From the NCBI GenBank assembly GCA_018817795.1, contig JAHITJ010000063.1, positions 1 to 42,385 of the forward strand: a DNA stretch of 42,385 bases, given 5' to 3'. The translations under genes were made by a program, and so were the position numbers. Shown here in pieces: positions 11,619-20,733 of the stretch. Under the pieces are notes generated by a model that saw nothing but the letters and a program-made list of their open reading frames with translations, was not told the origin of the DNA and made no database searches. Numbering within the stretch: the stretch's first letter is position 1; every line of letters starts with the position of its first letter. Source of the stretch: Myxococcota bacterium. Its GTDB lineage: Bacteria; Myxococcota_A; Polyangia; HGW-17.

Positions 11619-11690
11619 TCAGTAGATTGCATGCAGCCGGAAAAGGGGTACAAATACGGTGACCGAACCGTTGCACCCAGGAGTGTCCCC

Positions 11691-12983
11691 ATGAAAAACA
11701 TCCTTATAATTTTAACATTGTCCATCCCATTGATTCTGTCCGCCTGTCAGAACGACTGCGGGAGCGACTGCAGCGAAAACAGCCAGACCACGTTCACGGT
11801 CCTCAAGAGCGACGCGCCGCGTGACACGACGCCCGACGCCTCTGCGGCCACCATCGACGCCTACGTGGCGGCCAACACCGACTTTGCGACGAACCTTTAC
11901 CAGGAACTGATCAACACCGCCGACGGGAACGTGTTTTTCTCCCCGCACAGCATCAATGTCGCCCTGATGATGACCTATGCCGGCGCCCGCGGCGACACGG
12001 CCGCGCAGTTCGCCGACCTGCTGCGCTTCGATCCCGCCGACGGGGCCATCCACGACACGCTCAACGCCCTGGACCTGCACCTGTCGGGCCTGGGCTCCGG
12101 CGACCCCGACGAGTTCCGGCTCTCCGTGGTCAACGCGACCTGGGGACAGGATGGCTTTTCCTTCGAAGACGCCTTCCTGGACATCCTGGCGACCTCCTAC
12201 GGCGCAGGGCTCAACATCCTCGATTTCCTCACCGATCCCGAGGCGTCCCGGGTGGTCATCAACGACTGGGTCGAGGATCAGACCGAGGGCCGCATCGAGG
12301 ACCTGCTGCCCGAGGGCTCGGTGACCTCCGACACACGCCTGGTGCTCACCAACGCGATTTATTTCAAGGCCGACTGGGAATACCAGTTCTCCGACCAGAT
12401 GACCCACGACGCCGACTTCACCCGGCTCGACGGCACGGTCGTGACCGCGGAGATGATGGGGCAGGACGAGATCGAGGTGCCGTACTTCGCCAACGCCGAG
12501 TTCCAGATGGTGGAGCTGCCGTACAAGGGGCTGGACACCTCCATGGTCATCCTGCTCCCGGCCGACGGCCAGTTTGACGCGGTCGAGTCCGAGCTCGCGG
12601 CAGCCTTCATCAACGGTTTCATCGACCAGATGACCCTCCAGAGCGTGATGGTCCAGCTGCCGAAGTTCTCGTTCACCTTCGATGTGAGCCTTAAAGCCCC
12701 CCTGATGGCCATCGGCCTGGCCGATGCCTTCGATCCTGCGCTGGCCGACCTCACGGGCATGAACCCGACAGCCAATCTCTACATACAGGACGTCGTGCAC
12801 AAGGCCTTCGTGGCCGTGGACGAGGACGGCACCGAAGCCGCCGCCGCCACGGGCGTGATCGTGGGCGACACGTCGGTGCCCATGAACATCGTCACCGCCA
12901 ACCGCCCCTTCTTCTTCTTCATCCGTGACCGCGTGCACGGCACGATCCTGTTCTTCGGACGCGTGCTCGACCCCACCGTTTAA
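11691..12983 (+). CDS. Serpin, predicted lipoprotein
   Basis: 430 aa from ATG 11691, chosen because AGGAG (11679-11683) precedes it and it begins directly with a lipoprotein signal (LSAC lipobox); a frame from 11631 adds a non-signal leader. The serpin fold is clear: FFSPHSINVALMMTYAGARG, the TRLVLTNAIYFKADWE strand, and the C-terminal NRPFFFFIRD...ILFFGRVLDPT. The reactive-loop hinge is EDGTEAAAATG (Glu378-Gly388), the small-residue pattern of inhibitory serpins. Counting from the hinge puts P1-P1' near Thr394-Ser395, which is only approximate. It would trap a serine or cysteine protease outside the inner membrane, possibly to shield the cell from its own or foreign proteases; that role is inferred. 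Confidence 0.93.
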   Translation: MKNILIILTLSIPLILSACQNDCGSDCSENSQTTFTVLKSDAPRDTTPDASAATIDAYVAANTDFATNLYQELINTADGNVFFSPHSINVALMMTYAGARGDTAAQFADLLRFDPADGAIHDTLNALDLHLSGLGSGDPDEFRLSVVNATWGQDGFSFEDAFLDILATSYGAGLNILDFLTDPEASRVVINDWVEDQTEGRIEDLLPEGSVTSDTRLVLTNAIYFKADWEYQFSDQMTHDADFTRLDGTVVTAEMMGQDEIEVPYFANAEFQMVELPYKGLDTSMVILLPADGQFDAVESELAAAFINGFIDQMTLQSVMVQLPKFSFTFDVSLKAPLMAIGLADAFDPALADLTGMNPTANLYIQDVVHKAFVAVDEDGTEAAAATGVIVGDTSVPMNIVTANRPFFFFIRDRVHGTILFFGRVLDPTV

Positions 12984-13541: not shown

Positions 13542-16403
13542 ATGCGTTCAGCCATGATTCTGATCTGCCTCGCGCTTCTGACAGCCGGAACCGTCGCCTG
13601 TGACAACTCCGGTGACAAAAAGAAGACCGAGGATCCCTACGTCGCCAGGAACACGCTCCCCAACCTGCCCGACTGGACCTGTCCGGCGGGGTGGACCAGC
13701 ACCCCAGGCTTTGTCGACGCCGACGGCAACGAGAATGTCCCTGAGGGCCTGACCCAGTTCAACCGGTGTGCTCCGCCGGCTTCCTGGGCCGGACCCAATG
13801 GCCCAGTCGAACTCGAGAGCTGGGTGTGTCCGGCCGGCTGGGTCACCATCGAGCACGCGACCCTGCTGGATAAAAATGGAAATCCGTTCTCCTGGTGTGA
13901 ACCCCCCAGGGTCGCGCGCATTTTCTCCCCCGGGGACGCCGATGACGGCACCGATTACCTCACACCGGTGCCCGAGGGGACCAACCCCGACGACTTCGAG
14001 CAGTGCGATGTATCCCAGGCCTTGATGCCTCAGTTGTGGGGCACAGGCTGCGTTCACATCGGGGATGCGTGTCCGGCCGGCGACTTCCCGGTGATCCCGC
14101 CCGAGGTCACCGGAGCCCGCCTCTACGTCCTTGAAGGCTCCGTGGCCGGTGACGGTTCCGAGGGCGCGCCCTTTGCGACGATCCTGGAAGCCGTGGCCGC
14201 CGCAGCCTCCGGCGATGTCATCGTCGTGGGAGCGGGCACCTACACCGATCCGATTGTCATAGACAAACCCCTCACGGTCTGGGGTGCCTGCGTTGAACGC
14301 GTGAAGATTGTCGACACCGTCACCAACGACGACGACGGCACCTTCACCGTCAACGACCGACTGGACATCCGGAACCTGGAAATCACCAGCTCGGGAATGG
14401 CCTTCAACCAGGCCCTCGCCGAGGGCTCCACCGGACTGGTGGCCACAGGGATCTTCATTCACCACACGACCCGCCGCGCCATTTTGGTGACCAGCGGCAA
14501 CAGCATGATCCATGACTCCCTGATCTTCAACATCAATCTTGGCGGACCGGACCTGACCGACGCCCGCGGACTGCAGGCCTACTCGATCACCGGGGCCGCC
14601 GCCATCGAAGTTGAAAACGTCATCATTGAAAAGGTGTCTGCTGCGATCGTCTCCATGGAAGCCTCGACCAGCATCAACGCCACCCATGTCCTGGCCCGCA
14701 ACAGTTTCCAGGGCTCGGCGACCGATGGCTATCCCTGCTTCGGCGCCTGGCGTGGGGCCCACCTCACCGGCAACGTCATCGCGGCCGATCAGTGCACCTT
14801 CAAAGGGATTCAGGCCAAGGATGCCTCCGCCGTCGTCTCCATCTCCTATGGCGCAGTCACCGACACCAGAACCATGTCCTTTGGCGCGAGCGCCGGCCAG
14901 CTCGGCTTTGGCATGGACGCCATCGCATCCCAGTTGATCGCGGATCATGTGCTCGTCCGCAACGCATTTGAGTTCGGCATCGGCTCGTCCAGCACCGGCA
15001 CCACCCTGAACCTCTCCGATGTCGTCGTCCTCGACACGCAGGCGCGCCCAAACAGTTCAGGCCTCTATGGATGGGGCCTGCTCATGGTCAACGGGCCCGA
15101 GGTCAATCTGGAGCGGGGCCTGTTTGAAGGCAACCGAATCCATGCCGAAGGGGAATCGACCCAGCTCAACGCCAGTCACATCGCGATCCTCCATAACCTG
15201 GAATCCGACGATGGCATGGGCCTGGTCGCCATGAGCGGATCCCGGATCACCCTCGCCAACGCCCTGTTCGAAGACATCGCGAACCCCAATATTTATGTGA
15301 GTGATGCACAGACCCAAATCAATATGAGCGACGTCTTGATCCATCACGCGACGGAAGAGGTCTCTTCCATGTCTGGCTATGGGGTTGTCCTTGCGGGTGG
15401 TGCCACAGGGATTCTGGAGCGGGGGGTCATCGACGACGTGGAGGTCTTTGGTGTACAGGCCGAATCGGGCAGCACCCTGGAGGCCATCGACGTGATCGTT
15501 TCCAACACGCGCCCGGATGACTTGACTCAATCGGCCGGCTACGGAGTTGGATCCCTCGGCGGCAGCGTGGTCTCCCTGACCCGCGCGTTCATCAACAACA
15601 ACCATTTTTTAGGGGTCGGAGCCCAGGTCAGCGAGACGGCCGTCCCCGGTGAAGACCCCAACTTGCTCCTCCACGACGTGATCATCTCTGACACGCACCC
15701 GAGCGTTGACAATGGGGAGTGCATGGGCCATTTCGAGTCCCAAGGCAGTGTCAGTTCCCTGACCAACGTGCTCATCGATCGCAGCTCGACCGTGGGGAGC
15801 TATCACGGCCCCCATACCGTGACCTCTGCGACCCACCTCGTGATCCGGGACACCATGTCCGGCGAGGACTCGGAGAACCCCGGACGGAATGGCTGGGGCC
15901 TTCATGTGTTCGATGACGCCGAGTTCACCGGACAGTACCTGCTGATCGAGGGCAGCCAGGACGCCGGCGCAGTGTTCCAGGGTGCTGGCCCCTCCTCCCT
16001 CACCGACATCCTGATCCGGGACACCAGGATCGGGGAATGCGCCCTCTACGAATCCACCGACCCATTTTACTGCCTCGATGACGGCCAGACACCGGTCTCC
16101 CGTGCCCTGGCGTTGATGGGTCCCACCCACCTGACCGTGACAAACTTCGAGTTCTCCGACAACGGGACCCTGGGTTTCCAACTCTTGATGGGCAGGGACG
16201 TCACCGGGGTCGCCTACACCGAGAGCGGCACCCTGACGCTGACCGATGGCGGCATCCTCGGCCACGAGTTCGGCATGTGCATCGAGGAGCTCCCCGACTA
16301 CGATCTGACCACGCTGGAGAACAACGTGTACCTGGAAAACGACGCCCTGATGTGCATCCAGGCCCACGCCGCCCCCCTGTGGATCATTCCCCCGACCCAG
16401 TGA
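13542..16403 (+). CDS. Large beta-helix lipoprotein (DUF1565-like)
   Basis: 953 aa. Signal peptide with lipobox TVAC (Cys20), then a charged linker. Residues ~45-130 contain two copies of a W-x-CPAGW ... CxPP module. A DUF1565-like start of a right-handed parallel beta-helix (GDGSEGAPFATILEAVAAAASGD, ~190-240) leads into a long repetitive beta-helix that fills most of the rest, with many NxxI/V-type rungs. Such folds occur in surface polysaccharide-binding or adhesive proteins and in pectate-lyase-like enzymes; no catalytic residues are assignable. ATG is supported by AGGAG at 13531-13535. Transcribed alone from the promoter at 13406. Cell-surface, substrate unknown. Confidence 0.85.
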   Translation: MRSAMILICLALLTAGTVACDNSGDKKKTEDPYVARNTLPNLPDWTCPAGWTSTPGFVDADGNENVPEGLTQFNRCAPPASWAGPNGPVELESWVCPAGWVTIEHATLLDKNGNPFSWCEPPRVARIFSPGDADDGTDYLTPVPEGTNPDDFEQCDVSQALMPQLWGTGCVHIGDACPAGDFPVIPPEVTGARLYVLEGSVAGDGSEGAPFATILEAVAAAASGDVIVVGAGTYTDPIVIDKPLTVWGACVERVKIVDTVTNDDDGTFTVNDRLDIRNLEITSSGMAFNQALAEGSTGLVATGIFIHHTTRRAILVTSGNSMIHDSLIFNINLGGPDLTDARGLQAYSITGAAAIEVENVIIEKVSAAIVSMEASTSINATHVLARNSFQGSATDGYPCFGAWRGAHLTGNVIAADQCTFKGIQAKDASAVVSISYGAVTDTRTMSFGASAGQLGFGMDAIASQLIADHVLVRNAFEFGIGSSSTGTTLNLSDVVVLDTQARPNSSGLYGWGLLMVNGPEVNLERGLFEGNRIHAEGESTQLNASHIAILHNLESDDGMGLVAMSGSRITLANALFEDIANPNIYVSDAQTQINMSDVLIHHATEEVSSMSGYGVVLAGGATGILERGVIDDVEVFGVQAESGSTLEAIDVIVSNTRPDDLTQSAGYGVGSLGGSVVSLTRAFINNNHFLGVGAQVSETAVPGEDPNLLLHDVIISDTHPSVDNGECMGHFESQGSVSSLTNVLIDRSSTVGSYHGPHTVTSATHLVIRDTMSGEDSENPGRNGWGLHVFDDAEFTGQYLLIEGSQDAGAVFQGAGPSSLTDILIRDTRIGECALYESTDPFYCLDDGQTPVSRALALMGPTHLTVTNFEFSDNGTLGFQLLMGRDVTGVAYTESGTLTLTDGGILGHEFGMCIEELPDYDLTTLENNVYLENDALMCIQAHAAPLWIIPPTQ

Positions 16404-16610: not shown

Positions 16611-18743
16611 TCAGGGACAGCCCAGCCCGGCGGGCTGCGTCCCCTCGCGGATTTTGTGCCTCTGCATCAGGGCGGCCAGCCGCCCGTCGGCACGCAGGGC
16701 GGCCAGGATCCCGTCGACGGCGGCCTTCAGTTCGGGCTCTCCCGACGGAAGCATGATGCCGTAGCCTTCACGGCTCAGCAGCTCGCCCACGAGCTTCCAG
16801 GCTGCGGTGTCGGTCCGGCTGGTGATCAGCACGTCGTCCATGATGAGGGCCTCCACTTCGCCCTTGAACATGGCCTCGAACGTGAGATCGTTGGTCTCGA
16901 AGACCCGCAGATCGGCAGCCTTGAAGGTCGCCCGGGCGAGCTTCTCCGAGGTGGTGTTCCGCTGCACCCCCAGGATGAAGGAATCCCGCGGCCCCGTGGG
17001 CCGTTTCGTCTTGCTGGCCAGGCGCTGTCCGGTGGCCAGGTAGGGCTCCGAAAACCCGTGCACCCGGCACCGCTCGGGCGTGATGCTCACCGCCGAGATC
17101 ACGACGTCGTATGGGTCCGGGAGGGAGGCCGCCAGGAGTTGGTCCCAGCCCTGGGGCACCAGCTCCACCCTGACCTTCAACTCGCCGGCGACGAGCTCGC
17201 CCAGCTCGACGTCGAAGCCGGTATACCGGCCCAGCTCCGGACTCCACGAGACAAAGGGCGGATGCTGGATCTTCTCGATGCCGATGCGCAGGACCCCGCG
17301 GGCCCTGATACGCGCCAGCGCCGACGGATAATAGGAGAACGAGCGCCAGGCGGACCAGGCCGCGCCATCCCGTTGGCGGACCCGCCAGCGGAAGGTGCCC
17401 CCCTCGGCGCCCAGGGAGTCCCACGGAATGACCAGATAGTCCTGACCGTCCGGGGCCCGCCAGGCGGGAAAAACCTTGGGCATGGGCGCGAGCCGCTCCA
17501 GTTCGATCTCGTGCATGGAGGCTGCCTGGCCCGGCGCCGGCCGCCAGCGCAGCATGTGGGCGCGATTGCGCGGTGAAAACGTCGCTGCGTCGGCGGGCTC
17601 GAGGAGTTCGGGAGCGGCCGGGGCCGTGCCGGCGATGACGGTCGGACCGGGGACGGCCACGAAGGCTGCCCAGGGACTCCCAAGGGCTCCCCAGGTCCGC
17701 GACAATATCCATGCGCCCACCAGGGCGACGGCAACCAGCGCGACCAGTCCGAAAAGAACCATCTTCCGGCGTCGGAACGGGGAATCCACCACAGTCCGGG
17801 TCGTCCCCGATTCTCCGGCTTCCCCGGTGTACGGCCCTGCTTCCACCGATGGATGGGCCTGCATGGTGACCGACGGTTCGACGGCGGCGACCGCACCGCA
17901 GAGCTCCTGAAAGAAATCACCGGCCGTGGCGGGGCGCGCCCCGGAATTCTTGTCCAGGGCCTTCTGCAGCACCTGCCACACCGGGATCGGGAAGGAGGGA
18001 ATGAACTGGGTGATGGGCGTGGGCGGCTCGGAGACGTGCTTGACCAGGATCTGCGGGACGTAGTCCCCCTCGAACGGCAGGCGTCCGGACAGCATCTGAT
18101 AGGTCATCACGCCCAGGGAGTAGATGTCGGAGGCGGGGCCGATCTCGTCGACACGACCCATGGCCTGCTCCGGGCTCATGTAGGACGGGGTCCCCATGAT
18201 GATGCCGGTGTTGGTGCGATCCCCGCTCTGAAGCTCCGGCTCCACGAGCTTGGCGATCCCGAAATCCAGCAACTTGACCATCACCCCGAGCTTCGATTGG
18301 ATGATGCGGACGTTGTCGGGTTTCAGGTCCCGGTGGATGATGCCCGTCTCGTGGGCCGCGTCCAGGCCCGAGGCGATCTGGCGGACCAGCAGCAGGGTCT
18401 CCTGGATCGACAGGGCCCCCTTGCGCTTGAGAAGTTGTCCGAGGTCCTCACCAGTCAGGAACTCCATGACCAGGTAGAGCCGCCCGTCCGGGAGCGTGCC
18501 GAAGTCGAACACCTGCACGATGTTGGGGTGGTTGATGTGGTTGACCGCCCGGGCTTCGGCGAGAAACCGGGTCGCCATGTCCGAGCGGGCATGCATGCCC
18601 GGATTGAGCACCTTGACGGCGACCTTCCGGTCAATCTGCGGATGGATCCCCAGAAACACCTGACCCATGGCCCCGGCGCCCAGGAGGCTCTCCACATGGT
18701 AGTTGCCAAGGGTCTGTCCAATCAGGGAATCCCGTTCTTCCAT
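16611..18743 (-). CDS. Transmembrane Ser/Thr kinase with extracytoplasmic solute-binding domain
   Basis: 710 aa. An N-terminal Hanks-type kinase (~13-285) has a Gly loop (GAGAMG, 22-27), Lys44 in VAVKVL, catalytic HRD (Asp139), DFG (160-162) and MSPEQ, so it should be active. A Thr/Ser-rich juxtamembrane segment and Arg-Arg-Arg lead into one TM (~328-348). Outside the membrane come a short beta-sandwich-like segment (~375-472) and a full bacterial extracellular solute-binding domain of family 3 (~476-700; RGVLRIGIE, YTGFDVELGE, YDVVISAVSITPERC, FSEPY). That domain usually binds amino acids or similar polar ligands. The architecture is of a ligand-sensing receptor kinase; ligand and substrates are unknown. 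GGAGGAG lies about 12 nt before the ATG. It follows the four-TM gene by 63 bp on the same strand. Confidence 0.92.
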   Translation of the reverse strand: MEERDSLIGQTLGNYHVESLLGAGAMGQVFLGIHPQIDRKVAVKVLNPGMHARSDMATRFLAEARAVNHINHPNIVQVFDFGTLPDGRLYLVMEFLTGEDLGQLLKRKGALSIQETLLLVRQIASGLDAAHETGIIHRDLKPDNVRIIQSKLGVMVKLLDFGIAKLVEPELQSGDRTNTGIIMGTPSYMSPEQAMGRVDEIGPASDIYSLGVMTYQMLSGRLPFEGDYVPQILVKHVSEPPTPITQFIPSFPIPVWQVLQKALDKNSGARPATAGDFFQELCGAVAAVEPSVTMQAHPSVEAGPYTGEAGESGTTRTVVDSPFRRRKMVLFGLVALVAVALVGAWILSRTWGALGSPWAAFVAVPGPTVIAGTAPAAPELLEPADAATFSPRNRAHMLRWRPAPGQAASMHEIELERLAPMPKVFPAWRAPDGQDYLVIPWDSLGAEGGTFRWRVRQRDGAAWSAWRSFSYYPSALARIRARGVLRIGIEKIQHPPFVSWSPELGRYTGFDVELGELVAGELKVRVELVPQGWDQLLAASLPDPYDVVISAVSITPERCRVHGFSEPYLATGQRLASKTKRPTGPRDSFILGVQRNTTSEKLARATFKAADLRVFETNDLTFEAMFKGEVEALIMDDVLITSRTDTAAWKLVGELLSREGYGIMLPSGEPELKAAVDGILAALRADGRLAALMQRHKIREGTQPAGLGCP

Positions 18744-18806: not shown

Positions 18807-19718
18807 CTATCGGAAGGTGATCTTGCGCCAGAACTCGCGCACGGAGAACAACTGGAAATCCTGGCCGCGGGCCGGGATCCAGATCAACAGGAACAGGTTG
18901 AACAGGGCGATCACCCAGGACCCGAAGTTCCAGGAGCCCTTCTGGCCAAAGACATACCCCAGGAGCACCTGCACCAGGGTGGTGGCCAGGGCGATCGTCA
19001 GAAACGCGTAGGTGACCGCGACGCGGCGCAGCAGCGCCAGGATCGCAAGCGACAGGAAGAAGCCCGCGACCACCAGGTTGGGGATGCCCGAGGTGGCCGT
19101 ATGCCCGAAGTGGTATATGTTGCCGCGGCCGTGCAGCAACGCCAGGGCCAGCGCGGCGACGGCCAGCAAGCCGGCGACCACGCCGGGGCCGAGCCACATC
19201 GGACGGAACCGCTCGGCCTGATCCGACCAGTCCTGGACGCGCACGCCCTTGAGGTTGGCCCGGATCTCCGTAAGCGCAGCCAGCACGCCCTCGCTGCGCG
19301 GCGACGTCGTGAAGACGAACATCTTCAGGTTGCCCGCCTCCAGCGGCGCCGAGAGCCCGAAATGCATGACCAGATCGGATTCCTCGTGGAAGGTCTCCCA
19401 TGGCTCCAGTTTCTTGGCATCCTTTTCGCTCTGTCCGTTTAATAATTTCTTGATAAACCGTTCACGAAAGGACGAAGTCGCGCTCCCCGTCAATGGAAAG
19501 AACAGGGAAAACGAACGCAACGGCGCAAACTCCGACGCGCCGGGCACCTTGGGCAGCTCGCACATGACCTCAACGACATCGCCGAAAGCCTTGCGGCTCT
19601 TGACGACATGGCTCTTCTTGTCCAGGATCAGCTTCACGAAAGCCCGCACATCGCTCTCCGTGCGCATCTCAATCATCTTGGGGGGGTCGACATGTTGCAT
19701 TTTCTCATTTAATGCCAT
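18807..19718 (-). CDS. Four-TM membrane protein, unknown function
   Basis: 303 aa from ATG at 19718, picked because GGAGGAA sits just upstream in the right place; longer frames to 19844 have no such site. The first ~190 residues are soluble and mixed alpha/beta, then four TM helices (starting near MWLGPGVV, GIPNLVV, YAFLTIA and WNFGSWV) fill the C-terminal third, ending in a short basic tail. No enzyme motif is seen. It is the upstream gene of the receptor-kinase pair (63 bp gap), so it may share a transcript and possibly a role with the kinase, or be a phosphorylation target; this is inference. It is divergent from the diguanylate cyclase gene. Confidence 0.8.
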   Translation of the reverse strand: MALNEKMQHVDPPKMIEMRTESDVRAFVKLILDKKSHVVKSRKAFGDVVEVMCELPKVPGASEFAPLRSFSLFFPLTGSATSSFRERFIKKLLNGQSEKDAKKLEPWETFHEESDLVMHFGLSAPLEAGNLKMFVFTTSPRSEGVLAALTEIRANLKGVRVQDWSDQAERFRPMWLGPGVVAGLLAVAALALALLHGRGNIYHFGHTATSGIPNLVVAGFFLSLAILALLRRVAVTYAFLTIALATTLVQVLLGYVFGQKGSWNFGSWVIALFNLFLLIWIPARGQDFQLFSVREFWRKITFR

Positions 19719-19827: not shown

Positions 19828-20733
19828 ATGACCACTTCAACCACAATCGAACGAGATCCCTACGAACTGCAACGTTTTCACGCCGATTTTCGCCGGGCAC
19901 TCCTGATGCATCGCACCGGTCGGCTGAATTTTTTTTTCACGATGCAGTTTCCCCAGGCCCAGCCGCCCTTCGATGAGGACGAGGAGCTCCTCAAGCAACT
20001 GGACTTCAGGCAGTGGCTCTCCGAAGATCCGCCGGAGTCCATCCATCAACTCGGCGCATACCGCAACCTCATCGCCAACCTCGAGCGACTTCTTGAGCTC
20101 AGCCGGCAGGCCCTCGAGGCGATCCCGACTGCGCCATCCGACACCGTCCTGTTCGCCGACATCCTCTTCGCGATGCACGAGTTCGACCGGCTCGTGGACC
20201 GCCTGCTCTCCGGCGTCATCACCAAACTGATCGACGTGGACGGACTCACGGGCCTGCTCAACCGAACGGCGATGGAGCGGGATCTGGAGAAGGAGCTGGC
20301 CCAATTCCGCCGAAGCGGCCGGCCCTTTTCAATCGCGATGATCGATGCAGACCTGTTCAAGCGGGTCAATGACGAGTTCGGGCATGGGTTCGGCGACGTG
20401 GTCCTCGAAACCCTTTCGGACAGATTCGTCGAAAGCCTGCGACCAAGGGATCGCGTCTATCGATATGGGGGCGAGGAGTTCCTCGTCCTGCTGCCGGAGA
20501 CGCCGCTTGAAAACTCCCTTCCCGTGCTGGAGCGGTTGCGCAGACGTGCCAGTGAGCGCACCATCAGTGACGGGGTCGTTTCCGTGCGTCAGTCCGTCTC
20601 CATCGGCGCCGCCGAAGTCGAGTCCGAAGAGACGGTCGACGAGATCGTCTTGCGAGCGGACCAGGCGCTGTATCGGGCCAAACAGGCGGGCCGGGATCGC
20701 GTCGAAACGGACCCTGGAACCGGAAAAACCTGA
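19828..20733 (+). CDS. Diguanylate cyclase with DgcZ-like N-terminal domain
   Basis: 301 aa, no TM. The C-terminal GGDEF domain (~135-297) has the intact active site GGEEF (214-218) and, five residues before it, an inhibitory-site RPRD (205-208), so it should make cyclic di-GMP from two GTP and be product-inhibited. The N-terminal ~130 residues are helical and laid out like the zinc-binding CZB domain of E. coli DgcZ (YdeH): a His in the first helix (His28), a DFRQWL turn where DgcZ has CQFGRW, then a long helical pair. The Cys and the HxxxH of CZB are missing, so if related the zinc site is lost. Start ATG 19828 has a weak ribosome site. The divergent neighbour encodes the four-TM protein. 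Confidence 0.9.
   Translation: MTTSTTIERDPYELQRFHADFRRALLMHRTGRLNFFFTMQFPQAQPPFDEDEELLKQLDFRQWLSEDPPESIHQLGAYRNLIANLERLLELSRQALEAIPTAPSDTVLFADILFAMHEFDRLVDRLLSGVITKLIDVDGLTGLLNRTAMERDLEKELAQFRRSGRPFSIAMIDADLFKRVNDEFGHGFGDVVLETLSDRFVESLRPRDRVYRYGGEEFLVLLPETPLENSLPVLERLRRRASERTISDGVVSVRQSVSIGAAEVESEETVDEIVLRADQALYRAKQAGRDRVETDPGTGKT

Follow-up and report, generated by a model that had tools for sequence, protein, structure and literature searches.

Domain organization of the receptor kinase gene

The window analysed here, a 42,385-nt stretch of a Myxococcota genome (contig JAHITJ010000063.1), raised at its locus 16611..18743 (minus strand) the question of whether a single bacterial polypeptide can couple a solute-binding protein (SBP) domain outside the membrane to a Ser/Thr kinase inside it. 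The minus-strand translation of 16611-18743 was one open frame of 710 aa with an ATG start, and it displayed the order kinase–transmembrane (TM) stretch–Fn3-like spacer–family-3 SBP, as recognized from the single frame, Pfam matches, homologues, and purifying selection. ORF translation and Pfam bore out the original prediction that a Hanks kinase, one TM, and a family-3 SBP occur together in this protein, and the domain order supported its reading of the layout as that of a direct ligand-to-kinase receptor; the minus strand, the Fn3-like spacer, the conservation over three genera, and the presence of the sensor on different kinase lineages had been omitted there.

The same order was found in six proteins from three genera of one class: (i) the window's own genome G000 and G002, (ii) G041 and G025, and (iii) G262 and G255, most of these genomes being draft or incomplete. 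The homologue from G002, belonging to the same genus, shared 92-94% identity with the window protein, and the four more distant homologues had an identical layout. A chance ORF was ruled out by the gene-like codon-position G+C of 16611-18743 (0.68/0.47/0.86), the 94% same-genus homologue, dN/dS, and the four distant homologues with the layout. The overall dN/dS between the window protein and its G002 homologue was 0.21; by region it amounted to 0.075 (kinase), 0.67 (juxtamembrane/TM part), 0.29 (Fn3-like spacer), and 0.13 (SBP). Purifying selection acts on kinase and SBP alike, and since dN/dS was low in these two parts and higher between them, both ends of the receptor are constrained while the link between them is loose. 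That chance or mis-assembly had joined a kinase gene to a transporter gene might be suspected in an assembly that was 88% complete and split into 263 contigs, but the same domain order and spacer recurred across three genera in six genomes, one of them the second genome with 92-94% identity, and these independent family members already refuted an artefact, which we regard as extremely improbable.

Distribution of the fusion

The class search was performed with the C-terminal part as query against about 318 genomes of the class (Polyangia, Myxococcota), a member being defined by a full Fn3–SBP match, and the fusion was present in 6 of them; all six members matched Pfam kinase and SBP and had one TM helix each. 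At E 1e-20, 379 genomes sampled evenly over the phylum contained no further members. Of the distinct ORFs fetched, 169 for kinases and 123 for SBPs, these six alone carried both domains. Within the genomes and ORFs covered, the fusion is thus uncommon, as had been supposed (6 of about 318 in the class; none besides these among the kinase ORFs).

Samples of Chloroflexota, Actinomycetota, Acidobacteriota, and Planctomycetota contained SBPs, but no listed match extending far into the Fn3-like part was accompanied by a kinase, in a search that scored 8-10 SBP candidates per genome and could have missed rare fusions there. The long-frame SBP matches checked in these four phyla had no kinase in the same frame, and those read were SBP–permease fusions or ordinary SBPs with long read-through frames. 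When plasmids were searched by tblastn, kinase matches came on top and no record spanned 80% of the query. No published description of this kinase–SBP fusion was found in the open-access literature. Some Streptomyces proteins bear the name of kinase/substrate-binding fusions, with a different type of SBP; these found no confirmation in the plasmid collection or the open-access literature. All six proteins belong to both the Hanks kinase and the SBP_bac_3 families, and the way in which the two are joined appears to be new.

Kinase domain and membrane segment

The kinase domain (residues 15-271; 17931..18701, minus strand) matched Pkinase PF00069 over its whole length at E 5.6e-48 and contained all core motifs: GAGAMG (22-27), VAVK (41-44), HRDLKPDN (137-144), DFG (160-162), and SPEQ (190-193). 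By domain and motifs it would be assigned to the Hanks-type Ser/Thr kinases, and the intact motifs of the full Pkinase domain agreed with its earlier description as active-looking. Its top PDB match was Mycobacterium tuberculosis PknA, and its nearest kinases were mostly myxobacterial. When the full-length protein was used as query against the genome contigs, matches were limited to the kinase domain. The window's own genome (3.4 Mb, incomplete) had 66 places matching the kinase query and was kinase-rich for its size.

A single hydrophobic stretch at residues 325-354 (17682..17771, minus strand; from hydropathy) began with RRK after an RRR patch, its cytosolic end thus being marked by RRRK, and a TM stretch occupied the equivalent position, near the middle, in 6/6 members; the one TM of the original prediction was thus recovered in the entire family. 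Because of this positive-inside patch and the location of ATP, the kinase is placed inside and the SBP outside the membrane. The outside location claimed for the SBP accordingly stood, while the word "extracellular" did not: in a diderm host, which the phylum implies, the ectodomain would be periplasmic.

Solute-binding domain and predicted ligand site

The SBP domain covered residues about 476-700 (16644..17318, minus strand), as judged from PF00497 and from the fit to AncCDT-1 (5t0w). SBP_bac_3 PF00497 was matched at residues 486-695 over profile positions 2-128 of 132, with E 2.2e-25 and 89.4 bits against a cut-off of 26.4. The ectodomain was modelled by AlphaFold2 with 42 sequences (pLDDT 88, pTM 0.85), while AlphaFold of the whole protein from its single sequence reached pLDDT 34. 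In a Foldseek search with the ectodomain SBP, AncCDT-1 5t0w was the best match (target TM-score 0.85), followed by ArgBP, a Trp-bound SBP, LAO, and glutamine-binding proteins (GlnH). The C-terminal half accordingly matched SBPs in both profile and fold searches, and the near-full profile match plus the two-lobe fold match to 5t0w justified calling the domain complete. Both segments named as diagnostic were also kept: ISAVSITPER at residues 549-558 (17070..17099, minus strand), which includes S553 and R558 in register with GlnH Ser164 and Arg169, and FSEPY at residues 564-568.

In M. tuberculosis GlnH, the amino-acid ligand is held by its backbone through Ser164, Arg169, and Asp250, residues common to SBPs of many specificities (PMC6069109). 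Their aligned counterparts in the window protein were S553, R558, and D636 (16836..16838, minus strand), the last being the predicted holder of the ligand alpha-amino group. R558 and D636 were invariant in 6/6 members, position 553 was Ser or, in G262 and G255, Thr, and the position of D636 was Asp in 97% of 36 other class SBPs. The predicted site therefore has the Ser/Arg/Asp set for an alpha-carboxylate and an alpha-amine. E490, H494, A551, T571, R595, R643, and M664 were invariant in the six members and rare or absent in the 36 other class SBPs, as would be expected of a kept ligand specificity; because E490, H494, and R595 belong to this set, the receptor family probably has a ligand of its own, presumably an amino acid or a related compound. 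The side chain of this ligand may, as a guess from E490, be basic or polar. Of the GlnH side-chain contacts to Asp/Glu, the two that could be placed, Lys161 and Thr162, corresponded by motif register to S550 and A551 and were not kept; they therefore do not reveal the ligand. The conserved pocket residues support retention of ligand binding by the SBP, as the original prediction had allowed. Cyclohexadienyl dehydratase activity was rejected for this domain, in which GVQRNTTSE resembled the binder AncCDT-1 (avqlgttse), not AncCDT-3 (avnpggtne).

The SBP could instead bind no free solute and offer a docking surface, with an amino-acid ABC permease or some other protein of the periplasm as examples of partners, the kinase then reporting the state of the transporter or envelope. 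An ancestral permease-docking surface is plausible because the non-receptor relatives in the class include SBP–permease fusions of amino-acid ABC transporters, and the family-specific R643 and M664 need not sit in the pocket. This is nevertheless unlikely: the amino-acid backbone site and the pocket positions E490 and H494 were kept across members differing at about 60% of their sequence, and no ABC transporter gene was recognized beside the window gene or among the neighbouring ORFs examined at member loci.

Spacer between membrane and sensor

The spacer (residues about 377-473, about 95 aa; 17325..17615, minus strand) was conserved in the six members, 19 of about 100 positions being invariant, and the AlphaFold2 ectodomain model builds it from beta strands. 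Its profile gave weak matches to beta-rich repeats of secreted proteins from the same class. Pfam fn3 gave no match, and a PDB sequence search with this stretch returned no match either. From its conservation, the model, and the weak profile matches, the spacer is designated, with reserve, an Fn3-like beta-sandwich.

Mosaicism of sensor and kinase

The SBPs of the distant members were 35-41% identical to the window SBP, and the kinases were 29-36% identical; the kinase is normally the better conserved part of the two. The window kinase was 55% identical over residues 4-393 to another kinase of its own genome, and the G255 kinase was 53-55% identical to kinases without an SBP in other genomes. 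In trees built with a quick method, the six sensors formed one clade, both among class SBPs (SH-aLRT 87) and in a set of 101 SBPs covering five phyla (SH-aLRT 100), while the six kinases were placed apart on the kinase tree. Forcing the six kinases into one group cost 214 log-likelihood units and was rejected (AU p 2.6e-45), as was joining the G000/G002 kinases with the G255/G262 kinases (AU p 8e-99); joining the window-type with the G041/G025-type kinases was not rejected (p 0.67), and the AU test did not separate these two. Because the sensors form one clade and the kinases do not, the phylogenies give good support to at least one swap, of either the kinase or the sensor, and two such exchanges are possible. 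That a portable cassette of flytrap and spacer has been put repeatedly on different Ser/Thr kinase lineages, the output being swapped and the input kept, is a proposition to which we would give even odds; if true, these proteins would be bacterial counterparts of ligand-gated receptor kinases.

Gene neighbourhood

The gene at 18807..19718 (minus strand) lay upstream of the kinase gene across a 63-nt gap, and its product of about 303 aa had a cytosolic N-terminal part, several C-terminal TM helices, and no Pfam match. It adjoined the kinase gene in both genomes of the genus, with a dN/dS of 0.076 against G002, and its product is possibly a co-transcribed partner of the receptor kinase. A diguanylate cyclase gene (19831-20730, plus strand; GGDEF E 5e-41) was divergent from this pair. 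On the other side, 13542-16403 (plus strand), which converges on the kinase gene, encoded a secreted-looking protein of 953 aa containing a right-handed beta-helix domain, and 11631-12983 (plus strand) encoded a bacterial serpin (PF00079 E 4e-111), which is uncommon in bacteria.

G041 and G025 had a second kinase gene directly upstream of the receptor kinase gene. In two related genomes, a second kinase with an N-terminal Cys-rich stretch was located just upstream of the receptor kinase, at loci L142 (11053-12150, minus strand) and L143 (7339-8436, plus strand), and the receptor kinases at these two loci also had an N-terminal Cys-rich stretch. No neighbour gene common to all three genera was seen at the member loci examined.

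These surroundings bear on another explanation, in which cytosolic inputs or partner kinases are the main drivers of the kinase, while the ectodomain does no more than tune or localize it. The second kinase gene of G041 and G025 suggests kinase cascades, a membrane-protein gene lies 63 nt upstream of the window gene, and the sensor is found with different kinases, all in keeping with cytosolic drive. It is the sensor cassette, however, that unites the family while the kinase lineage changes, and a ligand site is not expected to persist in a mere anchor; we consider this explanation quite unlikely, more so than docking.

Proposed mechanism and comparison with known systems

The reading we prefer, at a probability of roughly two in three, is a one-component periplasmic amino-acid receptor Ser/Thr kinase, whose sensor cassette of flytrap and spacer has been combined with different kinase lineages. 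The periplasmic flytrap would bind a small amino-acid-like solute and then close. We infer the further steps as follows: closure would be passed on through the Fn3-like spacer, and from there through the single TM helix, to the cytosolic kinase, the kinase would then autophosphorylate, most likely as a dimer, and the activated kinase would phosphorylate target proteins. Ligand-promoted dimerization has been described for PASTA kinases (PMC6213207). The identity of the ligand, the switching of the kinase by binding, dimerization, and the substrates all belong to this conditional part of the proposal.

The closest analogue was GlnH–GlnX–PknG of Mycobacterium and Corynebacterium, in which a Ser/Thr kinase is under the transmembrane control of a family-3 SBP for amino acids, and which its authors presented as a new role of SBPs as sensors for Ser/Thr kinases (PMC6069109). 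There the same job is done by separate proteins, namely the lipoprotein GlnH, the four-helix-bundle membrane protein GlnX, and the soluble TPR kinase PknG, whereas the window receptor is a single polypeptide with no TPR recognized by Pfam and without the Asp/Glu side-chain contacts.

The PASTA kinases PknB, PrkC, and StkP resemble the window receptor in having a cytosolic Hanks kinase, one TM, and an outside ligand domain, and the kinase domain of PknA/PknB is similar to the window kinase. PASTA repeats were absent from the window protein by Pfam, the outside domain being a Venus flytrap, and the NCBIfam PASTA-kinase model matched the kinase half alone (266.8 against a cut-off of 450). Venus-flytrap sensor histidine kinases such as BvgS and EvgS have family-3 SBP-type domains fused via a TM helix to a histidine kinase with phosphorelay output; the window receptor differs in its Hanks Ser/Thr kinase output and in the Fn3-like spacer between TM and SBP, and the Pfam scan found no HisKA/HATPase domains in it. 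The SBPs of amino-acid ABC transporters (LAO/ArgT, Escherichia coli GlnH, AncCDT-1, and ArgBP) share with the window SBP the fold, the Pfam family, and the backbone site, but the window SBP is part of a receptor rather than a transporter and has the family-specific H494 and R595.

The trigger of bacterial kinases is usually unknown, and the receptor design would make it directly testable: with sensor and kinase in one chain and ligands screenable by simple binding assays, ligand-to-kinase signalling would be open to study in a purified system. The six natural members, which join a shared sensor to different kinases, could reveal whether the sensor output is generic, and a generic output would be useful for building amino-acid-responsive kinases.
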